From a virus, in the IMG/VR virus record IMGVR_UViG_3300029985_000693, positions 1 through 64,000 of that record: a stretch of DNA of 64,000 nucleotides, one strand, 5' to 3'. Below are positions 7,345 through 40,405 of the stretch, piece by piece; the stretch's first letter is position 1; every line of letters begins with the position of its first letter. A model generated the notes under the pieces. That model searched no databases. It worked only from the letters and a program-made list of their open reading frames with translations, and was not told where the DNA came from. The translations under genes were made by a program, and so were the position numbers.

Positions 7345-7379
7345 AGCAATAATCTTATTTACAGGAGATTTAAACAATT

Positions 7380-8051: not shown

Positions 8052-8077
8052 AATTTAATTAAGGTAAATCTCCTGTG

Positions 8078-8117: not shown

Positions 8118-8124
8118 GGGGAAT

Positions 8125-8137
8125 AATCTTTAAGCAT
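8125..8137 (+). promoter_or_regulatory. AATCTTTAA variant of the rightward box
   Basis: AATCTTTAAGCAT directly precedes the ATG at 8138, downstream of the terminator, where new transcription would be needed. The same variant occurs at 17862 before the sheath gene. Function is inferred. Confidence 0.35.
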
Positions 8138-9016
8138 ATGACTTTCCCCAACCAAGTTTCCAGTACTACCACGGATGTAGGTACCCCTTTTGGCCAGATA
8201 AACGTGGGTAATTCTAATGGCTTTACACCTGGAGCGACTGTATTGATAAGTTCTCAGGTATTTCCTACTCCCTATCAATTAAAAATACTATCCATACAAG
8301 GGAATCAATTAAACCTAGTAACCCTACAAGACACCATACCTGATTTAAGCCAATTTGGTACCCTACCTACAGATACCACCACTATCACCCAAATAACTAC
8401 TCCGATAGGATGGTATACCCTTTTAGATGGTAATCCCGGTTCTTCATATTATGGTTATTTTAACAAAGTTACTGGTCCCGATACTGGCAACGCCAATGAA
8501 TGGGATCAGTTTTGGTGCTTAAATGCATCCAATAATGGTGATTCAATAATTTGGATTTGTTCTTCTCCAGGTGTTTGCGCTCCTCAATGGGCTGAAGGCC
8601 AATCCATCCAAATAAACATGCAACGCAGTAATGCTGGTCAAAACTACGTTGCTACTTCTAGTGGTACTACTACTGGGGGAAATGCCCCTACTGGTACAGC
8701 CACAGAAACAGGAACTGATGGAATTACATGGATTTATGTAAATAGTTTACCTGTTGCTACATTTAACAGTATATTATTGGCAAGTCCTGGTGGAAGTCCT
8801 CCAACCTTTGTAAACAATGAGATACCAACAGGTTCAATAGATGGTATTAACGGTACCTTTACTTTACTACACATACCTCTTGATGGCATTAATGTGTATT
8901 TATCGGGATTAAGAGTCCCCCCTGTTAATTATACTTTAATTGGCAATGTTTTTACTTTCGTATTAGGGCAAATTCCACCAGAAGGATCTTATCTTTATGT
9001 CGATTACTCATATTAA
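8138..9016 (+). CDS. Virion surface protein paralogous to the gene at 7380, with added fibre-type domain
   Basis: A 292-residue protein. Residues 1-215 are paralogous to the whole product of the gene at 7380 (shared GTDGITW, NMQR and GPDTG-type landmarks). Residues 220-292 add a module (NEIPTGSIDGINGTFTLLHI...YLYVDYSY) of a kind common in phage fibre and baseplate proteins, with the typical 'GTING-x-FTL ... G-x-x-L-x-VDY' layout. There is no Shine-Dalgarno, only the AATCTTTAA box. The 3' end overlaps the next gene by 20 bases. It is probably a fibre or decoration component. Confidence 0.6.
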   Translation: MTFPNQVSSTTTDVGTPFGQINVGNSNGFTPGATVLISSQVFPTPYQLKILSIQGNQLNLVTLQDTIPDLSQFGTLPTDTTTITQITTPIGWYTLLDGNPGSSYYGYFNKVTGPDTGNANEWDQFWCLNASNNGDSIIWICSSPGVCAPQWAEGQSIQINMQRSNAGQNYVATSSGTTTGGNAPTGTATETGTDGITWIYVNSLPVATFNSILLASPGGSPPTFVNNEIPTGSIDGINGTFTLLHIPLDGINVYLSGLRVPPVNYTLIGNVFTFVLGQIPPEGSYLYVDYSY

Positions 9017-17887: not shown

Positions 17888-20389
17888 ATGGCTCAATCAA
17901 TTAATTTCGCAAATCAAACAATCACCATTCCTGGCGGCTACGCGCAATACAACGTGCAGAATGTAGCTAATGGTTTAGCCTCAAGTGGTATTATTACGCT
18001 TGTTGGCGAATCAGAGATTGGTCCCTCATGGAATCTAGAAGCCGATCTAGACCTAAATATCTTTGGACCAGACCAATTAGCAGATGCTATTGCCAAGTAT
18101 GGAGATGGTCGTCTAACCGACGCTATGCGTCAAGGAATCGGTCCATGCCTAGATCCAGCCATTACCGGCTCACCTTCTGGTTTTATTCTGGTAAAGACCA
18201 ATGCAGGAACCCAAGCTTCCCTAGTAATTGCCGACCAAGTTAGCGGCAATTACGGTACTTTGTTTAGTCAAAACTACGGGGCTCAATTCAACAGCCTTTT
18301 TAATACCATTTCAGACTCAGTATCAGAAATAGTGCCTGGATTTACAGCTACTTATATTCCTCCTCAGACCGCTTTCGGTTTAGGCATTCGCGTAGATGGT
18401 GGCTCCTCATCCGCCATTACGGTTGCCAATTCACCCGAACTACCAGCGGCTGTAGTTTCGGCTCTAAATGGTGTAAGTGGCATTACCGCTACGGGGGGTG
18501 TGGCTCAAACACTTCTATCTGGTGGAACCACGGTATCCGGTGTTGTTAATAGCGGTACTGGTTTCGGCACTTCTGTAACTTTCTCCATTCCCGGTTCGTA
18601 TCCCACCCCATCGGTAGGAGATACTCTTTTGATGCTAACGAATACCTTGACGGCTAGCTGGAAGGGAGCCTATTCAGTAACCGGTACATCTACTGGTACT
18701 ATTACAGCCATTAAATTAGCTGATATTGGTGGAACTTCTGGTGTAGTTACTACTCCTACCGGAACTCCATCTGCAAGTCTAACAAGTTCAGACATGGAAA
18801 CGTACACAGCCATTAATGTTGTTACCTCTTCAACTCTAATCGATGGTTTGGGCAAATCACTAGAAATACTACAAACTAGTGGCTCTGCTGCTGAAACCCT
18901 ATTCTACGTTCCCGGAACTGCGGTTCCAAGTGGAGTTATTGCTACCTCTACCACTCCTGAATTAAACGTTTCAGCGGCTGAACGTGTCGTTGGTATGTCC
19001 ATCCTCAATGCGGCCACCAATAATGCTTATAATTTCACTGCCGGTGGACAAGTTGTATTAGAAGTTGGTTATTACACCGCTGCGACAGCTACAATGACCA
19101 TTGGTGTGGTTAATGGAGTTCCCAGCTTCTCAACTACAGTAAGCGGTGGAGCCGGAGCCAGCATTGCCACAACCCCTCTAAGCCAATTCTCCACTGTAGG
19201 AGCTATGGCTACCTGGATTAGCAGCAAACTAGGCTATTACGCCGTTCCTTTTAACGCTACTATTGGTTTAATGCCTACTTCTTCTTTGGACTATGGTACG
19301 TTTGGTATTGCTACCAGCCAAAATACAGCCAGCAAAGCTACTGTAGGTCCGGGTAGGATAAAGTCAGATGCGACTTCGTTCTTCAACGCTCTAAGTGCTT
19401 CTGGAACAGAACAACTAAACAGTCCTGCCGCTAGGGCCAGTTCTGGTCTACCAGCCAATATCACCAGTGTACCATTGGCCGGGGGAACCTTGGGTGGAAC
19501 TACTGAAGCTCAATTCCAAGCTGCTATCGATGCTTGCCAATCTGTTACAACCAACTTCATCGTTCCTCTTATAAGCCAAAACGCCTCTTTGGATATCGCC
19601 AGTGGATTAACCGATCCTTCTTCGACATACCAAATCGATGCGGTTAACTCATACGTATTAAAGCACTGCAACTTCATGTTCGGTCCTCCCAATATGGGAA
19701 ATCGTCAAGGGTTCCTCTCGAAGAGGGACACTCTAGCGAATTGTGAACAAGCTGCTGCCAACCTAAATAGCTCTTTGGTTAGTATGGCTTTCCAAGACAT
19801 TAAAATCGTAGAAGCTAACGGTATAGTTCAAGAACAACCTTGGGCTAATGCGGTTACAGCTGCGGCAATACAAGCGGCTGGATTCTATCAAGGTATATTC
19901 TTCAAATCTATCGATGTCAGTGGTGCGGTTCAAGCGGCTGGAGATTTCAACCCCAAGAACCGTAGCCAATTAACTGCGGCTCTCAAGAGTGGATTATTGA
20001 TTATACAACCTGTAAATGGTTTCCGCTATGTTTCAGACCAAACCACCTACGGTACGGATAACAATCCAATCTACAACTCAATCCAAGCGATTTATGCGGC
20101 CAACCTATGCGCTCTAACTCTAGCTCAACGTATGGAAACAGCCTATGTAGGTAAATCCCTAGCAGACACCAGTGCTTCCTTGGCTTTGGCTTCAATTGAC
20201 CTAATTTGCCAAAATCTATTTAATGCTAAATTGATTGCGGCCAGCACTGGAGCGCCAAAGGGATACACTAACGCATCCGTAAGGATCGTTGGTCCTCAAA
20301 TGATGGTTCAATTGGACTTATACGTCGCTACTTGTTTGTACTTTGTAACCATTAATTTCAACGTACAACAAATCGTCCAAAGCGCCTAA
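17888..20389 (+). CDS. Contractile tail sheath protein
   Basis: An 833-residue sheath subunit. The C-terminal third has the layout of myoviral sheath proteins: EQPWANAVTAAAIQAAGFYQG, a RSQLTAALKSGLLIIQPVNG strand pair followed by a short turn and the Thr-containing TTYGTDNNP, then a helical ALTLAQRMETAYVGK stretch and a closing set of strands (VRIVGPQMMVQLDLYVATC). Residues 170-450 are a large Ser/Thr/Gly-rich insertion that probably decorates the outside of the tail. At 833 residues it is longer than T4 gp18 (about 660). Its neighbour at 20434 is the tail tube, which supports the call. Confidence 0.82.
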   Translation: MAQSINFANQTITIPGGYAQYNVQNVANGLASSGIITLVGESEIGPSWNLEADLDLNIFGPDQLADAIAKYGDGRLTDAMRQGIGPCLDPAITGSPSGFILVKTNAGTQASLVIADQVSGNYGTLFSQNYGAQFNSLFNTISDSVSEIVPGFTATYIPPQTAFGLGIRVDGGSSSAITVANSPELPAAVVSALNGVSGITATGGVAQTLLSGGTTVSGVVNSGTGFGTSVTFSIPGSYPTPSVGDTLLMLTNTLTASWKGAYSVTGTSTGTITAIKLADIGGTSGVVTTPTGTPSASLTSSDMETYTAINVVTSSTLIDGLGKSLEILQTSGSAAETLFYVPGTAVPSGVIATSTTPELNVSAAERVVGMSILNAATNNAYNFTAGGQVVLEVGYYTAATATMTIGVVNGVPSFSTTVSGGAGASIATTPLSQFSTVGAMATWISSKLGYYAVPFNATIGLMPTSSLDYGTFGIATSQNTASKATVGPGRIKSDATSFFNALSASGTEQLNSPAARASSGLPANITSVPLAGGTLGGTTEAQFQAAIDACQSVTTNFIVPLISQNASLDIASGLTDPSSTYQIDAVNSYVLKHCNFMFGPPNMGNRQGFLSKRDTLANCEQAAANLNSSLVSMAFQDIKIVEANGIVQEQPWANAVTAAAIQAAGFYQGIFFKSIDVSGAVQAAGDFNPKNRSQLTAALKSGLLIIQPVNGFRYVSDQTTYGTDNNPIYNSIQAIYAANLCALTLAQRMETAYVGKSLADTSASLALASIDLICQNLFNAKLIAASTGAPKGYTNASVRIVGPQMMVQLDLYVATCLYFVTINFNVQQIVQSA

Positions 20390-20433: not shown

Positions 20434-20979
20434 ATGGCTACTAATCTACCCCGTGCGAAAATTTGGTCTGGAGCCCGCGCACTTGTATACGTAAATGCGG
20501 TTCCAAACGCAAATGGTTCAGCCTCACCCAGCCAGGGGGGTGGTACCGTTCAACCCACCACTGGAGACGGTCTAGTTCTAATTGGTCTATTCACTACCGT
20601 ATCGTATAATTTCAGCTATATGGAGCAAGACATTGATATACTTGGTCGTTTCGGACCAGTACAAATTGAATACGTAGGGGCTACCACCGTATCAGGTTCA
20701 GCCAGCGGATGGCGTGTAGTTGACAATGGTCCGATGGCTACCGGTTTGTTCCCTACGATGGATCAATTGCTAAATTATACCGATTTGGTATTCCAAATAG
20801 TTGATCGCCAAGACCCAACCAAAATCTTTTGCAATATTACTAATGTTAAGCCTTTAAATTACAGCTCCGGTACTGCCAATAAAACAGCCAGTACGTTCAG
20901 CTTGGATTTCAAGGGTCTAATACTAGAAGAGGACGGCGTTTCCAACGCTGAAATCAACGTACCCAGCTTGCCAATTTAA
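20434..20979 (+). CDS. Tail tube protein
   Basis: A 181-residue protein directly after the sheath gene, the usual order in myoviruses. It has a beta-rich plan: an N-terminal arm (ARALVYVNAVPN), a GLFTTVSYNFSYMEQDIDILGRFGP strand set, an SGSASGWRVVDN segment and a C-terminal TFSLDFKGLIL strand. Length and plan fit tube subunits of the gp19/gpFII type, which stack as hexameric rings inside the sheath. The assignment rests mainly on position and size. Confidence 0.75.
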   Translation: MATNLPRAKIWSGARALVYVNAVPNANGSASPSQGGGTVQPTTGDGLVLIGLFTTVSYNFSYMEQDIDILGRFGPVQIEYVGATTVSGSASGWRVVDNGPMATGLFPTMDQLLNYTDLVFQIVDRQDPTKIFCNITNVKPLNYSSGTANKTASTFSLDFKGLILEEDGVSNAEINVPSLPI

Positions 20980-21386: not shown

Positions 21387-21968
21387 ATGAACACTCAAAT
21401 ACTAACTGATGCCCTTAATTGGATTATAACCCATAAAACTGCAATAATCGCTGGAGCCTTAGCGGCCCTTCCGACCATTATTACGGCCCTGTCCAACTAC
21501 CCCAAGGCGGCTGGATTAGAAGCTGTACTCAAAACAATTCTAAATATACTGTCTATTGCTACTCACAACGATAGTCCTGGTACATTGAAGCTCCCAGGAA
21601 CGATGTCCAAGCCTCCGGCTGGGCAAACAGCCACACTCAGTGTGGGCAATGGAGCCAAAGTAGCCATAATCATAGCAATGCTACTTCCTTCTACCGGATG
21701 TACCTTCATGAAGTCAATCGCCAAGCCATCAGAACAATGTGGCATGGCCGAAGTTGTTCCAGTGGTAGGAGCTATTTCTGCTGGGGATGAAGCTACGATT
21801 GTTGCTGATCTTGGAAACGCAGTCGAATGTGAAATAGGAGTTATCGTAAGCACTCTTCAAGGTAAAATCGATACTGCTACCGCTGCTGGCAAGGCGAATC
21901 CTTTAACCAAGACCGAACAAAAGTTACTACGGGTTGGTCAAGCATGGCTCAAAGCTCATAACAAATAA
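21387..21968 (+). CDS. Two-span membrane protein with internal lipobox-like site
   Basis: A 193-residue protein. Residues 13-37 are a membrane span (WIITHKTAIIAGALAALPTI) and residues 90-103 a second hydrophobic stretch ending in LLPSTGC, similar to a lipoprotein signal site (Cys 106). The remainder has three further cysteines and an Ala-rich helical end. An internal ATG at 21603, preceded by AGGAACG, would make a separate 121-residue product with that lipobox near its N-terminus. Position beside the holin-like gene suggests a lysis or membrane role, possibly nested genes. No family is recognised. Confidence 0.5.
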   Translation: MNTQILTDALNWIITHKTAIIAGALAALPTIITALSNYPKAAGLEAVLKTILNILSIATHNDSPGTLKLPGTMSKPPAGQTATLSVGNGAKVAIIIAMLLPSTGCTFMKSIAKPSEQCGMAEVVPVVGAISAGDEATIVADLGNAVECEIGVIVSTLQGKIDTATAAGKANPLTKTEQKLLRVGQAWLKAHNK

Positions 21969-21994: not shown

Positions 21995-23152
21995 ATGGAT
22001 AATTGGCTATTGGTAGCTTTATTTTCTGTAGGAAGCTGGGGGCTCAGCTTTCTTTTAATGAAGCTTTACGACAATAATATAAAATCTGAATTTAAAGCTA
22101 CCGCCAAATCCATTAAAGATACGGCTGATAAGGTAACTAAGGATCTAGTTGCCATTTTAGAAGAAAAGGACAAAACCGTCAATGCTTTGGCACAGGGGAT
22201 CTCTTCACTTAATAGCCACAAAGTTGTAATGGAAGGATTCAGCAAAGAAACAGCTGAAAAACTAGTAGCCATCGATATTGAACACCTTAATGTAAATGGA
22301 AGTATCCGACAAACAAACGATGTATTAAATAAACACAAAACATCGGTTCAAGACAGCTTTACGTCCATAAATAACAAATACGAGGACTTAAGAAATCAAT
22401 TAACAGGCTGTACTCAACACATGGAAATGATGACTAGGATTCAAGAACAAACAACCAAATCCCTAGAATCAGCCATTGCTAATTTAAACGTAAATAAAGC
22501 TACGGTGCTTTCTTTAGATCAAACAAACAATGAAATAAATAAAATCAACCAAGAATTAGCCAAAATCAATAAGTTTGATGAGCTAAAAGAGTCTATTGTA
22601 CGTACAGACATGGCTAAAGTCAACAACGAGAGGCTAACTGAGCTACAAGCCGCCCTATTAGACAACAAGAACCTACACACCCAGCTAGAAATATCCCTTA
22701 AAGAACAACTGGCTAATATTAAAGAATCTTTAATTGGTATTAACAGTGAAAAATCCAAACTAGAATTAGACATAATCAATAAGTTCAATGAATTCAAAGC
22801 TAATTTAGATAAAGAGTCTATTATTAGATTTAATGATCTAAAGAAGGCCGTGGAAAATATTATACCTAATTCCGATACAGCAAATATCGTTAAAACAGCC
22901 ATAGAAGAAGTAGACGCCCTAAAAGATGAAACAATACAAGAATCTATAGTTAAAGCTAAACAAAACCATGAAGCTTATATAGAAGAGCGTAAAAGCCGTA
23001 GGGCTGCTAATCATGAAAATGATCCTAAAACCTTAGAATTTCATCCAGACCAAAAAATAAAAGCCTTAGCCCAAAGAGTCCAAAGAGATTTAACCCAAAA
23101 AGGATACAAAGTAACACTAGAAAAAATAATCAGTATGGTTAAGGGGAGCTAA
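21995..23152 (+). CDS. Membrane-anchored long coiled-coil protein
   Basis: A 385-residue protein. Residues 4-24 are an N-terminal membrane anchor (WLLVALFSVGSWGLSFLLMK) and nearly all the rest is a charged heptad-type coiled coil (for example KINQELAKINKFDELKES and NKFNEFKANLDKESIIRFND). The C-terminal 40 residues are basic (ALAQRVQRDLTQKGYKVTLEK). It has a good ribosome binding site (AAAGGAATAAAAA). The shape suggests a spacer or scaffold extending from the inner membrane. No family is recognised. Confidence 0.6.
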   Translation: MDNWLLVALFSVGSWGLSFLLMKLYDNNIKSEFKATAKSIKDTADKVTKDLVAILEEKDKTVNALAQGISSLNSHKVVMEGFSKETAEKLVAIDIEHLNVNGSIRQTNDVLNKHKTSVQDSFTSINNKYEDLRNQLTGCTQHMEMMTRIQEQTTKSLESAIANLNVNKATVLSLDQTNNEINKINQELAKINKFDELKESIVRTDMAKVNNERLTELQAALLDNKNLHTQLEISLKEQLANIKESLIGINSEKSKLELDIINKFNEFKANLDKESIIRFNDLKKAVENIIPNSDTANIVKTAIEEVDALKDETIQESIVKAKQNHEAYIEERKSRRAANHENDPKTLEFHPDQKIKALAQRVQRDLTQKGYKVTLEKIISMVKGS

Positions 23153-23156: not shown

Positions 23157-23498
23157 ATGAATGTATTCACTCCGGTTCCATTTGGACCAACATACAACGT
23201 ATCTACCTTAACTCCATTGATAGGTAATTTTCTTATTAGTGGCTATGATACAGTTATAATTACAATCCAAAACCTAGATTCAACTCATACGGTAACTCTA
23301 GTGGTAGATCCTAGTACTTCTGGGGTCGTATTCAATACAACCCAGCGCCAGCAAAGTTATGCATTGCCGTTAGAGGAAGGGTCGGTGACTATCCAAACTT
23401 CTGCATATCAATATATAAGAGTTTCAGCTCAAACAGACGGTCCATCTTACCCTACCGTTCAAGTAAAGTTTCAAATTAATGGTAGTAAGGATATATAA
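23157..23498 (+). CDS. Small beta-rich protein upstream of the exported proteins (113 aa)
   Basis: A 113-residue, Thr/Val-rich protein with about eight predicted strands (TVIITIQNLD, HTVTLVVDPS, SVTIQTSAYQYIRVSA, PTVQVKFQING), giving a jelly-roll or Ig-like impression. It has no signal peptide. The stop overlaps the ATG of the next gene by one base (ATAATG), so translation is coupled. It may be a virion or adhesin accessory subunit. Confidence 0.6.
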   Translation: MNVFTPVPFGPTYNVSTLTPLIGNFLISGYDTVIITIQNLDSTHTVTLVVDPSTSGVVFNTTQRQQSYALPLEEGSVTIQTSAYQYIRVSAQTDGPSYPTVQVKFQINGSKDI

Positions 23499-26400
23499 TG
23501 AAACGATTTTTCCTACTTATAATTCTAGTGAGTTTTGGTTCTTTAGCCAATGTAAGCGACCCAGCCGTAACAGCTCCGGTTGGTAGGGCTACCCCTTCGG
23601 CCCTGTCTGTTCAAGGTCAAGCCGGAATGATTCCTATAGCTGTTACTTGCTCTAATTGTGGTTCAGGGGGTGGCTCTGGAGGAGGTTCGGGTGGAGGCAG
23701 CGGTGGTTCGGGTGGAGATGTAAACATTATAGAGGTTGGAGGCGCAGCTGTTTCTTTGGGTTCTAAAACTTCTGTTAATAGCTTTCCTGTAGTAATAGCT
23801 TCAGATCAGGGGGATGTGCCTGTTTCTGCTGTTTCTTTGCCACTACCTACCGGCGCGGCAACTTCTGCCAATCAAACCAGTGAAATAACCGTACTGGAAG
23901 CAATTTCAGCTCAATTACCCGCCTCACTAGATGGATCTGGAGATCTAAAGGTACATGAACAAGGCATAGCAAATGTAGATATTACCAACTCAAGCATTCC
24001 CGTGACGCAAAGCGGTTCCTGGACCGTTACAGCTAATGCCGGTACTAACCTAAATACATCCCTGTTGGCCTTGGATACGTCTGTAAATGGTATTTTGGTA
24101 GCCCAAGCATCTACTACCTCTGGAGAAAAGGGACCGCTAGTTCAGGCTGCGGTAACAACATCCGCCCCAACCTATTCCAATGGGCAAACAAGTCCATTAT
24201 CTTTGGATTCTACTGGTAGCTTACGTGTAAACGTAACGGCTGGTGGAGGAGCCAACGCTTCTATAGGTACAATTGGCGCTACTTTGCCTGGATCTGCTAC
24301 CACTGTAGGTTTCAAGGACGGCTCAGGTAATTTGCAAGCGTTTATTGGAGACACCACAAATGGCATTAAAGTACAATTACCTACTGGTTTTGCTACTTCT
24401 GCTTTGCAAACAACAGGAAATGCCACATTGGTTACCATAAATTCAACACTTGGAACCCCTATGCAACAAACAGGTGGTAGCGTTACTGCTAATGCCGGTA
24501 CCAACCTAAACACATCCCTATTGTCTTTGGATACTTCAGTTAATGGTATATTGGTAGCTCAAGGTTCAACGACTTCTGGAGAAAAAGGACCATTAGTTCA
24601 AGCTGCGGTAAACACAGCTGCTCCTGTTTATTTAGACGGTCAAACAAGCGCCCTGTCCTTAGATACTACCGGTAGCTTACGTGTAAACGTAACGGCTGGT
24701 GGAGGAGCCAACGCTTCTATAGGTACAATTGGAAGCGCAATACCATCTTCTGCTACCACTGTTGGATTTAAAGATGGTTCTGGCAATCTACAAGCTTTCA
24801 TTGGTGATACAACAAACGGTATTAAAGTACAATTACCCGGTGGTAGCGTTACTGCTAATGCTGGTACTAACTTAAATACATCCTTATTAGCTTTAGATAC
24901 TTCAGTTAATGGTATTTTAGCTACTCAAGGCTCTACCACCGCTGGAGAAAAGGGTTCCCTGATGATGGGAGCGGTTACCACGTCCGCTCCATCGTACTCC
25001 AATGGGCAGACAAATCCATTCTCTTTGGACGCTGCTGGTAATTTAAGGGTCAACGTAGTGAGCGGAGGTGGTTCTAATGCTTCGGTTGGTTTAACCGGTA
25101 CAACGGCTCCTACTTCAGCGACAGAAATGGGTATGATCACCAGTGGTAACTTAGTTGGTATTACAAGTGGTCAAACAACCATGACGAATAGCCTTCCAGT
25201 GGTAATAGCGTCGGACCAATCTACAATTACGGTACAAGGCGCTGGAACTGGATTAGCTCAATCGGGAGGAGTGTTGTTGACTCAGCCGACCCAAGCAAAA
25301 ACAGCCTCTACCGTATTTAACGCATTAAGTCAAACACTTGTTATCCCTTTGGCTGGCTCTCAAGGGGCTGTATTCCAGCTGACAGCTATTTCAGCGGGTA
25401 CTATGACTGCTGTAGTGGATGCCAGCTGGGACAACGGAACTACGTGGACTAGCTCAGGTTACCAATTCGAAGGAGTATTGAGTTCTGCTACATTTGCATC
25501 CTTAGCTGCAAATACAGGTACAAACGCACTAGACGCTTACATGTTGATCCCAAACAACTCAACCTTTACAGCCAATGCTCCCGCCTACACCCCTACCCAT
25601 TTGAGGATTAGGGTTTCAGCCTATTCATCTGGCTCCATTACAGGAACCCTTACTGCTATACCTGTTAATGCAAATCCAAGCACGGGAGCTATTAACGGCA
25701 CATACAACCTTCCAGGTGCCGCCACCCTAAACGGTGTAGATATCGGTAACGGTTCAATGGGACCCGTTTGGGGTGCAACTGTCAACTCATTAGCTCCTCA
25801 AGTCGGTATGGAAGTATTGACAGGTGTTGCTACGTCGGCTATCAGGGCTGCAACCTCAGGAAATATGGTCATGCCTAGCATCGATAATGCCAACGGAGAT
25901 GCTTTTGTCGAAATTGCGAGCGGTGTAACAAAAGCGGCTGTAGTTACAAACAATACCACCGCCGTTGGTATTGGTTTGGAAGTGCTAGATCACGTAGCTG
26001 AAACACTAGGAAGCACTGCGTCATATTCAACCGGAAATAGCGTGGCCGCAGCTGTGGACCTTTCGGGTCGTACATATATAGTAGGGCAGATAGCAGATAA
26101 CACCGCTGCCGCTGGCAATCCTGTAGCCATTGCAGCCAAGGGCGTAGCCGATGGCGCTGCTCCTTCAGCCGTATCTGCCGGTAGCACTGGTTATCCAATT
26201 ATGTCACTCGATCGTCGTCTTTATGTGGATACCACTCATCCTAATTTTTTCTCTTACAACATGAGCGGACAAACGACAAATACTCAATTAGTTGGTTTAT
26301 CTGGTGCTAGCGTTTCATATTATATTGATTCTGTTACGTTTTCGACTAGCGCTGCTACAAACATGTCTTTGGTTAGTAGCACTACAGCTGGTACGGCTTG

Positions 26401-26572
26401 CGTTTCAACACCAACAATTGTTGTTCCTACTATATACCTAAACTCGGGTGGGGCTGGTGCCACCATGACTTTCCCAAGTCCCATCAAAGTGACCGCAAAC
26501 TCCGCGTTATGCTGCACTGTAAGTGCAGCCAACGCTTCTAGCTGTGTCGTAACTGGACATTTGGCTCCTTAA
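23498..26572 (+). CDS. Exported repetitive fibre-like protein (1024 aa)
   Basis: A 1024-residue protein. Residues 1-17 are a Sec signal peptide (MKRFFLLIILVSFGSLA, likely cut before N18). A cysteine pair (CSNC) is followed by a Gly/Ser linker at about residues 53-75. Residues 170-480 hold three copies of a repeat that begins TANAGTNLNTSLLALDTSVN and includes GSLRVNVTAGGGANASIG and FKDGSGNLQAFIGDTTNGIK, spaced 152 then about 122 residues apart. The C-terminal 450 residues are Ser/Thr/Ala-rich and beta in character, with a Cys-containing end. The sequence style is that of a phage fibre, but a signal peptide is unusual for a virion part. Confidence 0.6.
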   Translation: MKRFFLLIILVSFGSLANVSDPAVTAPVGRATPSALSVQGQAGMIPIAVTCSNCGSGGGSGGGSGGGSGGSGGDVNIIEVGGAAVSLGSKTSVNSFPVVIASDQGDVPVSAVSLPLPTGAATSANQTSEITVLEAISAQLPASLDGSGDLKVHEQGIANVDITNSSIPVTQSGSWTVTANAGTNLNTSLLALDTSVNGILVAQASTTSGEKGPLVQAAVTTSAPTYSNGQTSPLSLDSTGSLRVNVTAGGGANASIGTIGATLPGSATTVGFKDGSGNLQAFIGDTTNGIKVQLPTGFATSALQTTGNATLVTINSTLGTPMQQTGGSVTANAGTNLNTSLLSLDTSVNGILVAQGSTTSGEKGPLVQAAVNTAAPVYLDGQTSALSLDTTGSLRVNVTAGGGANASIGTIGSAIPSSATTVGFKDGSGNLQAFIGDTTNGIKVQLPGGSVTANAGTNLNTSLLALDTSVNGILATQGSTTAGEKGSLMMGAVTTSAPSYSNGQTNPFSLDAAGNLRVNVVSGGGSNASVGLTGTTAPTSATEMGMITSGNLVGITSGQTTMTNSLPVVIASDQSTITVQGAGTGLAQSGGVLLTQPTQAKTASTVFNALSQTLVIPLAGSQGAVFQLTAISAGTMTAVVDASWDNGTTWTSSGYQFEGVLSSATFASLAANTGTNALDAYMLIPNNSTFTANAPAYTPTHLRIRVSAYSSGSITGTLTAIPVNANPSTGAINGTYNLPGAATLNGVDIGNGSMGPVWGATVNSLAPQVGMEVLTGVATSAIRAATSGNMVMPSIDNANGDAFVEIASGVTKAAVVTNNTTAVGIGLEVLDHVAETLGSTASYSTGNSVAAAVDLSGRTYIVGQIADNTAAAGNPVAIAAKGVADGAAPSAVSAGSTGYPIMSLDRRLYVDTTHPNFFSYNMSGQTTNTQLVGLSGASVSYYIDSVTFSTSAATNMSLVSSTTAGTACVSTPTIVVPTIYLNSGGAGATMTFPSPIKVTANSALCCTVSAANASSCVVTGHLAP
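24215..24732 (+). repeat. Exact 62-bp direct repeat inside the exported fibre-like gene
   Basis: The 62 bases at 24215-24276 recur exactly at 24671-24732, offset by 456 bases (152 codons). They encode GSLRVNVTAGGGANASIGTI. Exact DNA identity where flanking repeat DNA has diverged suggests recent gene conversion or duplication inside the gene. Confidence 0.8.
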
Positions 26573-26573
26573 T

Positions 26574-29500
26574 ATGCTTAAGAGATTATTTATATTATTA
26601 ACAATAGTTGGAAGTGCAGCCTATGCCGGAGATGCATGGGTAGGAAGCAACAGTGCTACATCCTATTATAGCACTAATAACGGTTCTACGTGGACTGCTG
26701 CAACTGGAATGGCAAGTCAAGGAATACAACCTTCATGCGTTGGTAGTAATTGCACTACCTTTTTTTATGCAGCTACTGGAAATACAGCTTATTATACAAC
26801 AAATGGAGGAGCTACATGGAGTACATCAACACTGCCAGCAACTCAGGGGTGGCAAACTCCAAGTTGTGTTGGAACCAACTGTAGCGCAACTGCTGGTTGG
26901 TTTGCTGGAGTAAACACAACGACTGCGGCTTTTAGCTCTAACAACGGACAAACATGGGTATCGTCTACATTGCCATCATCTCAATTGTGGTGGGCTCCCT
27001 CTTGTTCTACTGGAAGTGTTTGTGTTGTTGTATCTGGAAGCACATCAACAAACGTTGCCGCTTTTTCTACTAATAGTGGATCTACATGGACCGCTTCTAC
27101 TTTACCGGCAACCGCCTCATGGGGATATTCGGTGTGCAATGGTTCAAACTGTGTCGTCACGGAAACAGGATCAACCACAACGGCGGCCTTTAGCAGTAAT
27201 GGTGGTTCTACCTGGGCAACATCTACGATGCCAAGTTCAGGTCAGTGGAGAGTTTCTTGTTCTGGAACAACATGTGCTGGAACAAGATATGATACAAACA
27301 CAACAGCGGGAGCTTTCTCTTCCAATGGAGGAGCTACTTGGTCTGCGTCAACCCTACCATCAAGCGGAACTTGGAGTTCCATATCATGTTATTCATCTAC
27401 TTGCTTTGCTTTTAGGAATGACTCTGCCACCACCGCTGCTGCCGTATCAACCAATGGTGGCTCTACTTGGTCAGCTTCTACAATGCCATCGTCAGCAGCA
27501 CCGTGGGGTAATCCTTACGCTGATTTTGGCGTTACAAACAATGCAGCCGTTGTCTGCAATGCCACTCTATCTGGGTGTATGACATACAATGGAGGTACTG
27601 GTTATGCCTTTACGGCAAATAGCGGTACTTCTTGGACGGGTGGCACTATTGGTTCTGGTTATAGCGGATGTGGTCTAGCGTATGCTTCAGTGGCACCGGC
27701 TATCACGTCCTTTACTGGCTCTCCAGGTGTATTTGGGGCGGCTGTAACAATTACAGGTTCTGGGTTTACAGGCGCTACATCATTGTTGTTTAATAATTTT
27801 TCCCAACCAACATTCACTATAGCTTCTGATTCTACAATTACAACTACAGTTCCAACCGGGGCAACAACAGGACAATTATCTGTAACATCACCATCAGGTA
27901 CTGGTCTGTCCGCTTCCAATTTCATAGTTTCTGGACATTCTGGTGGGGCCTTCTTTATAGGTAATAACGGTAGCAATCCAAAAGCCAATGTAGCTTACAG
28001 TACAAACGGCTCATCTTGGTTTTCAGCAACAGCTTTTGGATCAACATTTTGGAGTAATCTACAAGGAAATACAACGTCTTGCAATTCTACCACAAATACA
28101 TGTGTTCTTACTGTCGATCCAAGTTCACTGGGTTTTTTTACAGCTTATTCTCCCAATGGAGGTCAAACATGGCAATTAAGTTCTCAATTAGCCGCCAACA
28201 CATGGGGGGGTGGGGTGAGCTGCCCATCTCTTTCTGGATGCGTAATGGTACAAGGTATTTCGACCAATACGGTAGCTTTTTCAACAAATGGAGGCTTATC
28301 ATGGAGTACTTCTACAACTCCATCTACCACGACCTGGAATGCTCCTGCATGTGTTGGAGCTAATTGTACACTTACCTCAAATGCCGGTACGGCTGGAGCG
28401 GCTTATTCAACAAATGGAGGTTCTACATGGACCGCTGCGACGATGCCTTCTGCCGCAACATGGAACACACCTACATGTGTAAGTACGTTTTGTACGGTAA
28501 CGGCTTATTTTACAACTACAACAGCGGCGGCTTATTCAGCCAATAACGGACAAACTTGGTCTGCCGCCATAATGCCTTCTTCCCAATCATGGAATCCTCC
28601 GACTTGTAGCGGAACGACTTGTTCAGCAACAACAAACACAACAACAACCGCAGCTGCCTATAGCACCAACAATGGCTCTACGTGGGGTGCAGCTACAATG
28701 CCATCTTCAAATCAATGGAACTCACCATCTTGTAGCGGAACTGTTTGTGTCGCCACTATAGTAGCATCCGGCACCACAGCGGCTTATTCAACAAATAGCG
28801 GGCAAACCTGGACAGCCGCTACAATGCCATCTTCTCATGCTTGGGGAAATCCAGTTTGTGTGAGTAGCAATTGCATTGCGATTCCTTTTGGAGGTACAGC
28901 TACTACCGCTGCTGCATATTCAATAAACGGTGGTCAAACTTGGACAGCCACTACACTACCAACATCGCAATCGTGGGGTCAACCAACATGTATTAATACA
29001 AATTGTACGGTAACGGCTTATTACAGCTCAAGCGCTGCTGCATATTCGACAAATAACGGTCAAACTTGGACTGCAACAACTATGCCACCGCAAGACGTTC
29101 CATTAAATGCAATATCATGTGGCTCTACAACATGCGCAAGCACAAGTAGCTTGTATTCTGGCACTGGAAGTTTCTATACTGGTAATGGATATTACTGGAC
29201 CAGTCCAAACTCTCTTCCGGGAAATTCATTAAACTGGAAGGCTGCTTCCTGTGCTGGTTCTACATGTTCAACAGTAGTAACCAATTCTAGTACAGCCGCT
29301 GCTTTTAGCTCTAATGGAGGATCGTCTTGGGTATCCGCAACAATGCCTTCTTCGGCAATATGGAATACACCTCTATGTATTGTTGGCGGGTTTTGCGTTG
29401 CAACAAACGCTACATCTGGTACTGCTGCTGCCTATTCGACAAACGGTGGTTCTACTTGGGTCGCAGCAACGATGCCTTCGAGTGGTGTTTGGAACACTCC

Positions 29501-30149
29501 TTCCTGTTATGGAATTTACTGTTCTGCTACAAATACAACCTCCGGAACCGCTGCTGCTTATAGCTCTAATAACGGTTCTACCTGGGTTGCCGCAACGATG
29601 CCTTCGAGTGGTGTCTGGAACGCTCCAGGTTGTTCTGGTTATACTTGTGCCGCCACAACCACGGCATCGGGTACTGTTGCTGCTTATAGCTCTAATAACG
29701 GCTCTACCTGGGTAGCCGCAACGATGCCTTCAAGTGGTGTTTGGAACGCTCCATATTGCTATGGTGTATATTGCATAGCTACACTTACTACGTCTTCCAC
29801 AGCGGCTGCTTATAGTTCTAACGGTGGTTCTACCTGGGTTGCAGCAACGATGCCTTCGGCGGCGGTATGGAATGGTAATCCTATTTGCAATGGAGCTATT
29901 TGTGTAGATGTAACGGCTGCGGCTGGTGTTACGACTATGGCCTACAGTCTTAACAATGGAGCTACTTGGTCTTTGGGTACCCTACCTGTAGCGGCTACGT
30001 GGAGCAATCCAACCGTAGGGGTTCTCAATATCACTATAGCAAATACAGGATTTACTAATTATTGGGGATACAACGACTTAATCCACGATCCTGTGGGTTG
30101 GCCATCCTCATTAGAAATATTTAATCAATACACACGTAATTTTAATTAA
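26574..30149 (+). CDS. Exported Asp-box (BNR-like) repeat protein with IPT/TIG domain (1191 aa)
   Basis: A 1191-residue protein. Residues 1-18 are a textbook signal peptide (MLKRLFILLTIVGSAAYA, cut before GDAW). About 24 repeats of 40-48 residues follow, each with an Asp-box-like turn S-x-N-G/N-G-x-T-W and a T-M-P-S-S segment, and most with a cysteine pair C-x(4-5)-C (PSCVGSNC, PTCVSTFC). This suggests one or more beta-propellers stabilised by disulfides. Around residues 372-460 an IPT/TIG Ig-like domain (ITSFTGSPGVFGAAVTITGS) splits the array. Asp-box propellers occur in sialidases, but no catalytic sialidase residues are evident. Export is inferred; the role may be surface adhesin, receptor mask or virion fibre. 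Confidence 0.7.
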   Translation: MLKRLFILLTIVGSAAYAGDAWVGSNSATSYYSTNNGSTWTAATGMASQGIQPSCVGSNCTTFFYAATGNTAYYTTNGGATWSTSTLPATQGWQTPSCVGTNCSATAGWFAGVNTTTAAFSSNNGQTWVSSTLPSSQLWWAPSCSTGSVCVVVSGSTSTNVAAFSTNSGSTWTASTLPATASWGYSVCNGSNCVVTETGSTTTAAFSSNGGSTWATSTMPSSGQWRVSCSGTTCAGTRYDTNTTAGAFSSNGGATWSASTLPSSGTWSSISCYSSTCFAFRNDSATTAAAVSTNGGSTWSASTMPSSAAPWGNPYADFGVTNNAAVVCNATLSGCMTYNGGTGYAFTANSGTSWTGGTIGSGYSGCGLAYASVAPAITSFTGSPGVFGAAVTITGSGFTGATSLLFNNFSQPTFTIASDSTITTTVPTGATTGQLSVTSPSGTGLSASNFIVSGHSGGAFFIGNNGSNPKANVAYSTNGSSWFSATAFGSTFWSNLQGNTTSCNSTTNTCVLTVDPSSLGFFTAYSPNGGQTWQLSSQLAANTWGGGVSCPSLSGCVMVQGISTNTVAFSTNGGLSWSTSTTPSTTTWNAPACVGANCTLTSNAGTAGAAYSTNGGSTWTAATMPSAATWNTPTCVSTFCTVTAYFTTTTAAAYSANNGQTWSAAIMPSSQSWNPPTCSGTTCSATTNTTTTAAAYSTNNGSTWGAATMPSSNQWNSPSCSGTVCVATIVASGTTAAYSTNSGQTWTAATMPSSHAWGNPVCVSSNCIAIPFGGTATTAAAYSINGGQTWTATTLPTSQSWGQPTCINTNCTVTAYYSSSAAAYSTNNGQTWTATTMPPQDVPLNAISCGSTTCASTSSLYSGTGSFYTGNGYYWTSPNSLPGNSLNWKAASCAGSTCSTVVTNSSTAAAFSSNGGSSWVSATMPSSAIWNTPLCIVGGFCVATNATSGTAAAYSTNGGSTWVAATMPSSGVWNTPSCYGIYCSATNTTSGTAAAYSSNNGSTWVAATMPSSGVWNAPGCSGYTCAATTTASGTVAAYSSNNGSTWVAATMPSSGVWNAPYCYGVYCIATLTTSSTAAAYSSNGGSTWVAATMPSAAVWNGNPICNGAICVDVTAAAGVTTMAYSLNNGATWSLGTLPVAATWSNPTVGVLNITIANTGFTNYWGYNDLIHDPVGWPSSLEIFNQYTRNFN
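29440..29870 (+). repeat. Near-identical tandem Asp-box repeats at the DNA level
   Basis: Four consecutive units share almost identical DNA around GCAACGATGCCTTCGAGTGG, one every 120-130 bases, encoding NGSTWVAATMPSSGVWN. They are part of the coding sequence and have no spacer structure of a CRISPR array. Units elsewhere in the gene are more diverged, so this end has expanded most recently. Confidence 0.7.
30138..30145 (+). promoter_or_regulatory. AATTTTAA box before the zinc-finger gene
   Basis: AATTTTAA overlaps the last codons and stop of the Asp-box gene and lies 24 bases before the ATG at 30170, with a ribosome binding site (AAAGGAA) in between. Because it overlaps codons for Asn-Phe, chance occurrence is more likely than at other sites. 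Confidence 0.35.
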
Positions 30150-30502: not shown

Positions 30503-30985
30503 ATGAAAAACATATATTTGGGGTTCTCAAACCACAATGATTGGTTTTCAAAACTAATCATGTGGGTTACCGAGGCACCGGTAAGTCATTGTTTTGTATT
30601 GATTAATGATCCCATATTGGGAGACATGGTTATGCAAGCTACTTCGGGAGGAGTGCAGATAAACACTCTGAAAACCTTTAAATTGACTCACAATATAGTT
30701 ACCGTGATAGAACCCAAAGTTGATTTATCTCAAGCCATAAAGGAAATCATAGAAGAAGACTTGGGAGACGGATATGACTATACGGGTGATTTAGGTGTAG
30801 CTTGGATTAGACTGGGAAAATGGTTAGGAAAGAAATGGCACAACATTTTCCATACCAAAAAACATGAGTTTTGCTCTGCATTGTTAACCAAATTAATACA
30901 AAAAGCCCGGTGGCCTGGATCGGAAACACTGGTACCAGACGAAGTGGACCCTGGCGAACTATTAAAGTTCGTCAGTAAACCTTAA
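30503..30985 (+). CDS. Permuted NlpC/P60-like (YiiX-type) cysteine hydrolase
   Basis: A 160-residue protein with the order of catalytic elements seen in permuted papain-like NlpC/P60 hydrolases: an N-terminal VSHCFVLI strand with the likely catalytic His (H29) and a downstream helix HEFCSALLTKLIQ with the likely nucleophile C124, then VPDEVDPGEL. Such enzymes cleave amide or thioester bonds in peptidoglycan peptides or lipids. Its place after the exported proteins suggests a late envelope-acting or tail-associated enzyme. The 3' end overlaps, on the other strand, the end of the membrane ClpP-like gene by four bases. Confidence 0.65.
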   Translation: MKNIYLGFSNHNDWFSKLIMWVTEAPVSHCFVLINDPILGDMVMQATSGGVQINTLKTFKLTHNIVTVIEPKVDLSQAIKEIIEEDLGDGYDYTGDLGVAWIRLGKWLGKKWHNIFHTKKHEFCSALLTKLIQKARWPGSETLVPDEVDPGELLKFVSKP

Positions 30986-31767
30986 TTACTCCAATCTATT
31001 GGGTAAATTAGGTAGTGGTTTCGTATTTTATCTACAGCATGGACTTGTAATGCCTCTTCTGAATCCATCTTCCAGTCAGCATCTTTAATTTTAGAAACAT
31101 AGTCTTCCACCTTCATATACATACGTTTGGCTATAAAATCAGCCATAGAGTTAGACATTTCTTCCAATGAATCCAATCTTTCCTTTAATTCATACTTATT
31201 AAGACTTGACTCAGGAATAACCGAAAACGGTTCATGGGTTAAAAGTATAGCGTCAGGAGCCATTTCTCTGAATGGGCACGCCTGTAATATGTAAAATCCC
31301 ATACTAGCACTGTATTCATCTACATAACAAGTTACAGTCTTAGGGTAGGAGGCGATTAATTGAGCCAATCTCATTCCTATCTCTACATCTCCACCTTCGG
31401 TGTTTAGTCTCAATAAAATGGTATCTATAGAAGGATCCCGAACGTGATCTATAAATATATCTATTAGTTTTATAGAGTTACTACCATTAATCTTGCCGTC
31501 GAAGTCTATAATCAGTTGACGGTCTTTGACTCCCATCTCTATAACCCTATCGGTACTCTTAGTTCCCTCACCGTCAGGTATGCACAAAAGACGGGAAAAT
31601 GGTAAATGTAGGTAATTGGGTACATTTACTACTGTTTGATTCGGAGAATCGTTCTTAATTACGCTTTGGGGTAGCAATCTGCAATCATATCCACCAACTA
31701 AAGGCAATAGAAACAAACCTATATTAAACCCCAACACCAACGCCACAATCTTAGATAATGAAACCAT
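30982..31767 (-). CDS. Membrane-anchored ClpP/SppA-like serine protease
   Basis: A 261-residue protein. Residues 5-25 are a membrane anchor (SKIVALVLGFNIGLFLLPLV). From about residue 80 it has the ClpP/crotonase fold with a complete triad: Ser155 in EYSASMGF (compare GQAASMGA of ClpP), His178 in LLTHEP and Asp231 in DADWKMDSEEAL. The oxyanion-loop-type motif NTEGGDVEIGM (122-132) is present. ClpP itself is soluble, so this is closer in layout to SppA or membrane ClpP-like proteases. It could process virion or host envelope proteins. It is the first of two such proteases in the window and converges with the hydrolase gene. Confidence 0.78.
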   Translation of the reverse strand: MVSLSKIVALVLGFNIGLFLLPLVGGYDCRLLPQSVIKNDSPNQTVVNVPNYLHLPFSRLLCIPDGEGTKSTDRVIEMGVKDRQLIIDFDGKINGSNSIKLIDIFIDHVRDPSIDTILLRLNTEGGDVEIGMRLAQLIASYPKTVTCYVDEYSASMGFYILQACPFREMAPDAILLTHEPFSVIPESSLNKYELKERLDSLEEMSNSMADFIAKRMYMKVEDYVSKIKDADWKMDSEEALQVHAVDKIRNHYLIYPIDWSN

Positions 31768-37840: not shown

Positions 37841-40375
37841 ATGGCTACTACTTATGCAAATCCACCCCAAGATACCACTCCGCTAGATACTATAGACCAC
37901 ACAATCATTCCGATTGGTGGTAACAATCTCAATCCTACCCTATTTGCCCAGGTAGGCACGGATGCCACCTTATGGAATAAAGCTTTCCCTTATAGATTTC
38001 AGATACTTGAACAGGATCCCATTAAAGGTCTAATGAATACAGGTAGATATTTCGACCTACCCATCCCACCGGAAGCTTTGGAAATCAACACACCCTTTGC
38101 CATTAATACATCTGTAACCCTAAATGGTATTATAGAACAACACAATGCGTTCCCATTGCTCAATATCTTTCTTAGGGGCTCTACGGGTGTATTAAACAAA
38201 CTAAACGTAAGGACTGGGAGTAATCAATTACCAGCCAAAGGTATTCTTGCTGGTACAATAAACGCTGTAAATGCCTTTGCTAAAGATATTAAAAGCTTAA
38301 ATGCACAACCAGGACCAAATACGGCTATTTATTCTCCTTCACTGATAGGAAATACAGATTTTTCAGGAAGCGGTCAGTCTCTTTCAGATGCAGTAACTGG
38401 AGCTGTTAATGCCTCTTTGGCTGGAACCGGCTATTCCAGGTTCCTGGCCTTACGTAACTTCTTAGAATCATACGCTATTTTGAAGAAACAACAAGCCTAC
38501 CAAGGATATCGATTAGCATTTACCACCTACAAAGACCAATATAGTTATATTTGTACTCCCAAGATGTTCCGTATGGTAAGATCTGCGGAAAGTCCTTTCG
38601 AGTTTAAATACGAAATACAATTGGAATCTTGGCAAAGAATCAAAGCTGACCAAATTAAACCAAATTTTAGCGGTCAGCATCGTGCATCGCAAGCCAATAA
38701 TAGTACTTGGCAAAACATACTGAAATACGTTCAATTAGGATTGACCTTACTAAACGACCTTTCCGGTATAATTTCAGGTGTAATCAGTGACGTTCAAGGC
38801 ATTTTGAATGTTGTTAGGGAAATATCATTATTCCTTAAGAATCTGGTAGGAGTAGCGTTACAAGCTGCCGACATGCCTGCGGTCATTGTTAATAACCTAA
38901 AAAATGCTATTTTAGCTTCTATAAATAATATAGCTACCGCTACTGCTGGTTCCAATGGTCAATTTCCGTCCAGTCAACAAGTTCAAGCAGATTATCAAGC
39001 CTGTTTAAGATGGTGGACGACCCAGCAAATGGTTAATCCAATAGTGATAAACGGTCCTGTTAACAATATGTTAAGGACTAATGTGGATTACATATTTGAA
39101 AATCCAAGCCAGCACTATGGGTTTTTCAACTCTATTGCTTTGAATAGTCTAAACAACATGACTTCAGCTATACAAGCTCAAATCAATACAGAGATTCAAA
39201 ATGTATCGGCTTACAGTGTGGTTGATTTTAAGAACGCAGTAGCCACCCTACAGAACGCATCGAATGTATATGCTCAAGCGGTAGGAGCTAGTGACCCAAC
39301 CTATATAGAAACCTACCAATTGGGATCTGTAAATCAAATAAGGGACACACCTACAGATGATGATTATGCGGTATTAAATACCATTAATGATATGATCATT
39401 CAAACCAACAATATAATAGCAGCTCTACAAAGCAATACAAACATCACAACACCTCAAGCGGTTACATTTGTTGCAAATCTAGCAAATCAGGCCGGAATAC
39501 CGTTTGATATTCCTTTAAGTAAATATCCAATTCCATTTCCTTACGGTGGAACCCTTGAAATGATAGCTCAAAATTACCTAGGAGATCCAGATAAATGGAT
39601 AGAAATAGCCACCCTGAATGGCTTAAGGTCTCCCTATGTAGACGAAATAGGATTTTTGCTAGATTTAACCACCAATGGCAACAACGACACTATTACCGTA
39701 GCGGATGTAAGCAATCTAATACTAGGGCAAACAGTATGGATTGGTTCCAATACGGTGCCAGTACAATCCAGGTCTATTTTGGCAATTAATAATCTAAGTC
39801 CAGATAGCTGGTCTGTGACCTTGGATGGTCCAGATGATCTAGGTATACTAAAAACTAGTGACAATGCCTATTTACATGCATTTTTACCATTTACCGTAAA
39901 CTCACAAGGATTCGTAGCTATTCCATCTCAAAATCCACCGGTTGGAGCTAGCGATCCTGTATCTAGAAACGATCAAATCAGTGTTGCCCAGCAAATATTC
40001 GATGCTGCTGGTACAGATTTATTAATAGACTCCGACAACGACCTAATTATAACTCAAAACGGTGATTGCAGATTAAGCCAAGGTGTCCAAAATATCATCC
40101 AAACCCTCAAAATTCTTATCGAATTACCAAGAGGGTCTCTCCTACATCACCCTACAATAGGTGTAAATCTAGTAGGTGGCAGTTTGGCAGACCTGAGCGC
40201 TACAGACATAGCATCTACCATCAAAACAGCTATAGATCAAGATGGTTTTTTCAGCAATTGGACATATTCCGTTACAGTAAAGGTTGACTCCAATTGGGCC
40301 AATGTAACCATTAACCTAAATGTAAGCAATGTACAACAATTACTGCCAATTACATTCAAGCTAAACATTAACTAA
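37841..40375 (+). CDS. Baseplate wedge fusion protein, gp53/LysM-like and gp25-like (844 aa)
   Basis: An 844-residue multidomain protein. Residues 40-270 include FRFQILEQDP-type and FDLPIPPEALEINTPFAI segments and a later KYEIQLESWQRIK, as in LysM-associated tail proteins that contact the sheath initiator. Near residues 550-600 there is a LysM-like stretch (GGTLEMIAQNYLGDPDKWIEIATLN) as in gp53. The last 115 residues (DLLIDSDNDLIITQNGDCRLS...LIELPRGSLLHHPTIG) match the gp25/GPW fold of baseplate wedges. T4 encodes gp53 and gp25 separately, so this is a fusion of two wedge functions. The N-terminal start context is AATTATGGC. Confidence 0.72.
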   Translation: MATTYANPPQDTTPLDTIDHTIIPIGGNNLNPTLFAQVGTDATLWNKAFPYRFQILEQDPIKGLMNTGRYFDLPIPPEALEINTPFAINTSVTLNGIIEQHNAFPLLNIFLRGSTGVLNKLNVRTGSNQLPAKGILAGTINAVNAFAKDIKSLNAQPGPNTAIYSPSLIGNTDFSGSGQSLSDAVTGAVNASLAGTGYSRFLALRNFLESYAILKKQQAYQGYRLAFTTYKDQYSYICTPKMFRMVRSAESPFEFKYEIQLESWQRIKADQIKPNFSGQHRASQANNSTWQNILKYVQLGLTLLNDLSGIISGVISDVQGILNVVREISLFLKNLVGVALQAADMPAVIVNNLKNAILASINNIATATAGSNGQFPSSQQVQADYQACLRWWTTQQMVNPIVINGPVNNMLRTNVDYIFENPSQHYGFFNSIALNSLNNMTSAIQAQINTEIQNVSAYSVVDFKNAVATLQNASNVYAQAVGASDPTYIETYQLGSVNQIRDTPTDDDYAVLNTINDMIIQTNNIIAALQSNTNITTPQAVTFVANLANQAGIPFDIPLSKYPIPFPYGGTLEMIAQNYLGDPDKWIEIATLNGLRSPYVDEIGFLLDLTTNGNNDTITVADVSNLILGQTVWIGSNTVPVQSRSILAINNLSPDSWSVTLDGPDDLGILKTSDNAYLHAFLPFTVNSQGFVAIPSQNPPVGASDPVSRNDQISVAQQIFDAAGTDLLIDSDNDLIITQNGDCRLSQGVQNIIQTLKILIELPRGSLLHHPTIGVNLVGGSLADLSATDIASTIKTAIDQDGFFSNWTYSVTVKVDSNWANVTINLNVSNVQQLLPITFKLNIN

Positions 40376-40380
40376 GCACC

Positions 40381-40388
40381 AATTTTAT
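40381..40388 (+). promoter_or_regulatory. AATTTTAT box before the gpJ-like wedge gene
   Basis: AATTTTAT starts the gap between two wedge genes, 17 bases before the ATG at 40406. No Shine-Dalgarno is visible. Confidence 0.4.
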
Positions 40389-40405
40389 CATCAGAACCCC
40401 AAATT

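Follow-up and report, generated by a model that had tools for sequence, protein, structure and literature searches.

Among exported phage proteins, Llp of T5 and the Cor proteins of T1-type phages are small lipoproteins that act at the host receptor (PMC9586334). Llp blocks its receptor, countering superinfection as well as phage attachment to the fragments of lysed cells (PMC9586334), and adsorption of a phage is inhibited by its own receptor-binding protein in free form (PMC12946066). With respect to fold, Asp-box β-propellers are represented by DAIP, YCF48 and the Vps10 domain of sortilin, as well as by giant phage proteins of the cyanophage type. Lambda Lom, an outer-membrane barrel, is a further exported protein and is encoded in the tail-fibre region.

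The window analysed here, 64,000 nucleotides of a 126 kb phage record, encodes two very large proteins of 1024 and 1191 residues (P1024 and P1191), which likewise carry predicted export signals. Their size and the lack of a lipobox set them apart, by description, from Llp and Cor; like Lom they would be exported from a fibre region, but they consist of fibre repeats and propellers as opposed to a barrel. The modelled fold of P1191 is similar to YCF48 and DAIP (Foldseek against the PDB, E about 1e-8) and to sortilin Vps10 (overall range about 1e-8 to 1e-7), yet identity is 10-19%, and P1191 differs in having a C-x4-C hairpin in nearly every blade, in its approximately 24 blades per chain and in being phage-encoded. 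Its blade type is that of the cyanophage-type proteins (many of the loci L209-L257), with approximately 34-53% identity in the A3 matches, although those proteins lack signal peptides and have few or no cysteine pairs.

Locus and domain architecture of the pair

The pair had been assigned to a late region in a preliminary description, and this is borne out by a contractile tail sheath gene (17888-20389, + strand; phrog_279, E = 1.9e-22; 40% identity over 92% to the sheath of Myxococcus phage Mx1) and by baseplate genes at 37841-46102. The sheath is followed by a tail tube candidate (20434-20979, +), whose homologues come immediately behind the sheath gene in more than 50 related phage loci. 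As phage tail genes occur on both sides, misassembled bacterial DNA can be ruled out. A 113-residue protein (P113; 23157-23498, +) is translationally coupled to P1024 (23498-26572, +), the two frames sharing one base (TAATG), and a single base separates P1024 from P1191 (26574-30149, +), such that the sizes, back-to-back order and spacing first given for the two large genes hold. Downstream, a permuted papain-like protein (30503-30985, +; phrog_1128, 1.5e-18; weak YaeF match) is kept in related phages at 29-37% identity (L009, L010, L014, L030 and L036); in L014 its gene lies approximately 0.8 kb downstream of a signal-peptide-less P1024 homologue. Promoter-like sites for the cassette are no more numerous than in shuffled sequences. 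None of the PADLOC models matched the three proteins, which speaks against a known anti-phage defence system, and tblastn searches with them recovered no relatives among GenBank phages.

Signal peptides were called with a simple heuristic (n-region charge, hydrophobic core and cleavage site), which was passed by six of 137 non-overlapping ORFs of the record. P1024 and P1191 present the clearest combination of these features, consistent with the good signal peptides initially ascribed to both: that of P1024 (MKRFFLLIILVSFGSLA; 23498-23548, +; hydrophobicity 3.2) has its predicted cleavage before N, and that of P1191 (MLKRLFILLTIVGSAAYA; 26574-26627, +) before GD. Both display the charged n-region, hydrophobic core and A-x-A-type site typical of Sec/SPase I substrates, the site being clearer in P1191. 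The remaining flagged ORFs are either membrane-anchor-like (8997 and a minus-strand, ClpP-like ORF at 30982) or questionable as ORFs (117674 and 118154). No cysteine that could be lipidated is present near either predicted cleavage site and no autotransporter domain was seen in the pair, leaving passage across the outer membrane without support. Judging from these sequence features, both proteins are predicted to be exported.

In P1024 the signal peptide precedes a CSNC segment with a Gly/Ser linker, fibre-type repeats and a C-terminal β domain with four cysteines. The repeat region (24017-24547, +) contains an ANAGTNLNTS motif common to exported and non-exported phage proteins, and an iterated HMM search detected the C-terminal domain (26303-26572, +) in 10 family members with a signal peptide and 16 without one. 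P1024 is a member of a phage repeat family, with signal-peptide-less homologues in the related myophages L014 and L021; it has no match in PHROG, and its likeness to phage proteins lacking a signal peptide is limited to the repeats and the C-terminal domain. The AlphaFold model of residues 590-1024 was poor (pLDDT 46), and its Foldseek matches were therefore set aside.

P1191 is predicted to be an Asp-box (BNR) β-propeller protein, with S/T-x-D/N-x-G-x-x-W hairpins in modelled four-stranded blades. The Pfam BNR family is matched at E = 1.2e-24 and approximately 24 Asp-box-like motifs can be recognized by eye; further, 44 of its 45 cysteines form 22 short-spaced pairs about 42 residues apart, and a C-x4/5-C pattern fits 20 pairs, whereas 2000 shuffled sequences averaged 2.6 and never exceeded 8. 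Hence, the earlier count of about 24 such repeats with paired cysteines stands. AlphaFold, suggested at the time as a check, modelled the first propeller (26628-27689, +; approximately 7-8 blades) with pLDDT of about 70-95 over most blades and recovered the above-mentioned likeness to YCF48, DAIP and sortilin. The second array (27939-30026, +; BNR E = 4.9e-21) comprises approximately 16 blades and 15 cysteine pairs. The intervening spacer (27690-27938, +; approximately residues 373-455) had been described as an IPT/TIG domain, which it resembles by eye, but Pfam gave no match even on the isolated fragment. No sialidase family in Pfam or NCBIfam matched P1191, and no enzymatic domain was found in either protein. 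Viral and bacterial genomes scanned with full-length P1191 yielded nothing, its relatives being obtained instead through an alignment of blades. The closest viral relative (L208, 7512-8555; 57% identity) has a signal peptide and seven cysteine pairs, and the homologues in L213 and L223 have neither cysteine pairs nor a convincing signal peptide. The oxidising location once proposed thus gains support, as a prediction, from the signal peptides and from the cysteine pairs of P1191.

The same cannot be said of P113, which lacks a signal peptide, has no convincing family matches and is not significantly similar to the protein at the corresponding position of L001 (E = 0.38), ruling it out as a conserved exported partner. 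Additionally, the 1024- and 1191-residue families recur separately and not as a three-gene unit: L208 has an exported Asp-box protein and lacks the P1024 motif, L001 has a motif protein alongside a Gly-rich exported partner, and L014 and L021 have the 1024-residue family without any signal peptide. On these grounds the undescribed three-gene system envisaged in the preliminary description is unsupported, while its suggestion of a new-looking exported adhesin is supported and surface or superinfection roles are sensible possibilities.

Exported fibre-like proteins in other phages

A signal peptide is found at the called start in 26 of the 119 ORFs of the ANAGTNLNT motif family, compared with a mean of 6.4 and a maximum of 13 for shuffled N-termini; the heuristic is passed by 8% of the remaining ORFs in these loci. 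At least four cysteines occur in 18 of 27 exported clusters versus 6 of 75 non-exported ones (p = 7e-9), and the cysteine background of the loci differs only slightly between exported and non-exported members. A similar enrichment in cysteines accompanies the signal peptide among proteins with the P1024-type C-terminal domain (p = 0.002). Exported fibre-type proteins recur at loci for fibres or lysis, frequently as several consecutive genes. Fibre-like phage proteins with export signals would form a widespread class that seems to have gone unremarked, with P1024 and P1191 among its members; in the part of the literature covered, signal peptides on tail-fibre proteins were not found described as a class. 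Approximately 80 sheath-related loci, with flanks of up to 10 kb, contained no other large exported fibre, and the pair therefore looks like a local acquisition in this phage group. Exported proteases are also encoded by the group.

Cultured phages provide comparable cases. BcepC6B gp19 and PBR31 orf035 combine a signal peptide with only the distal part of the phrog_11393 tail-fibre profile (281-538 and 319-538 of 538), and their last 140 residues are 35-46% identical to T7-type fibres (KpV74_48, Peat1, BF25/12 and PPWS1). Unlike those fibres, they have a Sec signal peptide and lack the N-terminal attachment half, as does a protein of L102 (4598-5617), in which a signal peptide is joined to positions 363-632 of an 801-position tail-protein profile; loss of the virion anchor is clear only in these three. 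The annotations of gp19 and orf035 do not mention the signal, and the available portion of the PBR31 paper notes a signal peptide on gp40 only.

Possible functions of the exported proteins

We tentatively favour the view that P1024 and P1191 are fibre-type adhesins exported to work at the host envelope, off the virion, with receptor masking as their likeliest role. Its basis is computational, namely the gene structure, the export signals, the Asp-box propeller, the cysteine pairs tracking signal peptides and the fibre homology. Both proteins would be made late as tail-fibre or adhesin-type proteins, leave the cytoplasm through Sec and acquire their disulphides in the periplasm, and would probably lack the usual attachment to virions. 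The wider class would comprise Sec-signal fibre-type proteins, some without the virion-attachment half, with an ordinary fibre adjoining in the cases checked. The exported protein might then bind the receptor or surface glycan seen by the fibres, on the producing cell and on debris at lysis; with the receptor so occupied, progeny would be kept from adsorbing, and being lost, to infected cells and fragments, and late-coming phage would be excluded. A generalization appears more doubtful: that numerous tailed phages encode a second version of their fibre, exported and in many cases without an anchor, which never enters the virion and acts as a secreted, disulphide-stabilised receptor blocker derived from their own receptor-binding domain, freeing progeny from infected cells and debris and excluding competitors. 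If the class is real, "tail fibre" annotations would have to be read differently, since assembly of virion fibres takes place in the cytoplasm and yet the class carries Sec signals, in environmental and cultured phages alike; host-range prediction and catalogues of receptor-binding proteins would include proteins absent from the virion, and the cultured phages would offer testable models of the way in which progeny are kept from being wasted on cell debris.

Alternatively, though this seems unlikely, the proteins could be virion fibres secreted into the periplasm, where oxidation stabilises them by disulphides, and joining virions only once lysis mixes periplasm and cytoplasm. Their genes lie in fibre loci, their homologues are fibres (L208 1144-4167 is homologous in sequence to known fibres), and a seemingly whole fibre N-terminus is retained in the mature exported protein of L208 and follows the signal peptide in L127 and L161. 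However, gp19, orf035 and the L102 protein lack the attachment half, and a separate signal-peptide-less fibre or tailspike lies just upstream of the exported gene in BcepC6B (gp18, an ordinary fibre), PBR31 (a tailspike), L208 (356-1147; Gp53-like_C, 3.8e-16) and L182. We know of no tailed-phage precedent for secreted fibres joining virions at lysis. A general rule by which the signal peptide invariably takes the place of the virion anchor is contradicted by L208, L127 and L161.

Ranking behind this is the idea of moron or lysogenic-conversion adhesins, exported, like Lom, to benefit the infected or lysogenic host by way of attachment, biofilm formation or aggregation. Integrases are present in PBR31 and BcepC6B, and L208 has an integrase-like gene; the run of exported proteins in L208 contains one that resembles an outer-membrane barrel (OMP_b-brl 0.0012, below the cut-off). 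Further, a secreted protein of Legionella steigerwaltii (L258) has the same Cys-rich, Cys-paired Asp-box design, for which reason P1191 could serve the host's surface. These genes are nevertheless situated in the late tail/lysis region and not beside a repressor or integrase, and no integrase was noticed in a non-exhaustive look at this record.

That they are standard virion proteins with a hydrophobic N-terminus that does not work as an export signal would accord with the signal-peptide-less homologues in the same phage group and with the simplicity of the heuristic and its above-noted 8% rate, but is improbable given canonical signal peptides in both neighbours, the like pattern in cultured phages and the tracking of signal peptides by cysteine pairs across two unrelated folds. 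Least probable is a lysis-linked role in loosening or occupying the envelope, which the frequent position of exported genes directly before holin, endolysin or spanin genes and the exported proteases might recall, but against which stand the lack of a detected enzymatic domain in P1024 or P1191 and the fact that the homologues are fibres, the genes for which commonly adjoin lysis genes.

Export signals and fold of the two large proteins

The gene arrangement reported in the preliminary description holds, with the 113-aa protein (23157-23498, +), P1024 (23498-26572, +) and P1191 (26574-30149, +) in succession and translational coupling present. Applied to the complete record (137 non-overlapping ORFs), a simple signal-peptide heuristic ranks P1024 and P1191 highest as classical Sec substrates, in agreement with the signal peptides ascribed to both; the other flagged ORFs are doubtful or membrane-anchor-like, and the 113-aa protein lacks a signal peptide by this heuristic. 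The paired cysteines noted in P1191 are equally evident: 44 of its 45 cysteines form 22 short-spaced pairs at a spacing of about 42 residues, and C-x4/5-C fits 20 pairs as against a maximum of 8 in 2000 shuffles. Its Asp-box repeats are recovered by Pfam BNR (E = 1.2e-24), and the AlphaFold model of residues 19-461, with pLDDT of 70-95 across most blades, retrieves YCF48, the Streptomyces protein DAIP and sortilin in Foldseek searches (E about 1e-8 to 1e-7). P1191 is an Asp-box propeller chain, comprising about 7-8 blades, a spacer and about 16 further blades; the spacer, previously described as an IPT/TIG domain, is TIG-like without Pfam confirmation. This fold and cysteine pattern suit an oxidising compartment, and actual export of the pair is highly probable.

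Relationship to tail fibres

A scan with the blade alignment matched 50 phage loci. The best match, a 347-aa protein of the phage locus L208 (7512-8555), has a signal peptide and 7 cysteine pairs, and the single bacterial match, from Legionella steigerwaltii, is likewise exported and cysteine-paired. Neither cysteine pairs nor a convincing signal peptide are present in the L213 and L223 homologues, and giant proteins of cyanophage type with blades like those of P1191 are devoid of both features. In this small set, cysteine pairs track the signal peptide.

In L208, baseplate-type genes (recognized by eye) precede a fibre lacking a signal peptide (356-1147; Gp53-like_C, 3.8e-16), which is followed by four exported genes and then lysis genes. 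The first exported product shows tail-fibre/depolymerase similarity (phrog_4250, 1.4e-20), another is weakly barrel-like, another begins like a fibre and the remaining one is the Asp-box protein. BcepC6B gp19 and PBR31 orf035, both from cultured phages and both clearly equipped with a signal peptide, share the C-terminal 140 aa of this first product, as do T7-type tail fibres, which have no signal peptide. Against the fibre profile phrog_11393 (538), gp19 and orf035 match the distal part only (281-538 and 319-538), and the adjoining BcepC6B gp18 carries the N-terminal region without a signal peptide. L102 4598-5617 displays the same truncation against a different tail family. In L208 and L127/L161, a fibre-like N-terminus follows the signal peptide, indicating that anchor loss is not universal.

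P1024 is a member of a phage repeat family with the motif ANAGTNLNT. Its homologues in the related myophages L014 and L021 lack a signal peptide; that of L014 lies about 0.8 kb upstream of a homologue of the window's papain-like gene. This gene (30503-30985) encodes a permuted papain-like enzyme (phrog_1128, weak YaeF match) conserved in the phage group near a P1024-type gene. A pattern scan of IMG/VR yielded at least 119 motif-bearing ORFs with a usable N-terminus, the matches listed being a sample. In 26 of these 119, a signal peptide begins at the called start, compared with 6.4 on average and at most 13 for shuffled N-termini; the heuristic also flags 8% of other ORFs in the family loci. 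After clustering of the listed ORFs, at least four cysteines occur in 18 of 27 exported versus 6 of 75 non-exported clusters (p = 7e-9); the other genes of the listed exported and non-exported loci differ only slightly in cysteine content. Further, the C-terminal domain of P1024 is shared by 26 members, 10 of them exported and 16 not, and the exported members again have more cysteines (p = 0.002). By eye, the mature start of the exported protein equals the start of the non-exported one in several pairs (L127 and L153; L161 and L154).

Exported family members often have exported neighbours, with which they form runs (L186, L196, L202, L208). Two such environmental phage loci, L186 (2300-8982) and L196 (220-6446), have at least five consecutive signal-peptide-bearing genes, extending beyond the fibre family. 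L001 has the same order of small gene, exported motif protein and exported Gly-rich protein, but kinship of its small gene to the 113-aa protein is not demonstrable.

Possible role of the exported proteins

These comparisons place the pair in a recurrent exported fibre-type class encoded next to ordinary fibres, and the existence of such a class is probable. Such proteins would be absent from virions and might bind receptors at the envelope; release at lysis would make outer-membrane passage unnecessary. Partial literature coverage yielded no virion proteome of an exported-fibre phage, and the JC1 proteome is silent on the matter. A precedent for receptor blocking by exported phage proteins is T5 Llp, which by blocking the receptor guards against superinfection and against adsorption to the fragments left by lysis (PMC9586334); in phage SD286, free gp38 acts as an inhibitor of adsorption (PMC12946066). 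Receptor masking by P1024 and P1191 is a tentative proposal, perhaps somewhat short of an even chance.

The phage and its neighbouring genes

The window is the initial 64 kb of an IMG/VR virus record 125,960 bases long and comes from a contractile-tailed phage; GC content is 42%. The tail sheath (17888-20389) shares 40% identity with its counterpart in Myxococcus phage Mx1, baseplate genes lie downstream (37841-46102), and the minus strand carries genes for a DnaB-like helicase, a primase and a UvsX-like protein. A 193-aa protein (21387-21968) has a hydrophobic segment at its N-terminus and, internally, a lipobox-like AMLLPSTGC. It adjoins a membrane-anchored coiled-coil protein (21995-23152), and the two possibly constitute a spanin pair.

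A recurrent feature of the phage group, close to the tail genes, is a ClpP/SppA-like serine protease that bears a Sec signal, lipobox or membrane anchor (window 30982-31767, -; L012 19296; L018 19220; L034 19502; L037 12998; L059 11010; L061 9843; L077 15859; L032 12456, -; L073 9808, -). Other members instead have a trypsin-like lipoprotein (Trypsin_2: L014 16998, 3.7e-16; L029 19715, 1.8e-11), with look-alikes by eye in L021, L036, L040 and L065. An exported protease is a conserved trait of this contractile-tailed phage group. A second, cytoplasmic ClpP-like protein of the window (54035-54679, -) is 27% identical to the exported one.

Elsewhere in the full record, tandem small Cys/His-rich ORFs with CKH/CPH motifs (111344-114005; L006 about 7344-10005) form an apparent expanded paralogue family, and near the record end two ORFs (121337-121831, -; 125606-125956, -) carry short, pentapeptide-like repeats, RTAQVRVAQ and APDRLAPDR.
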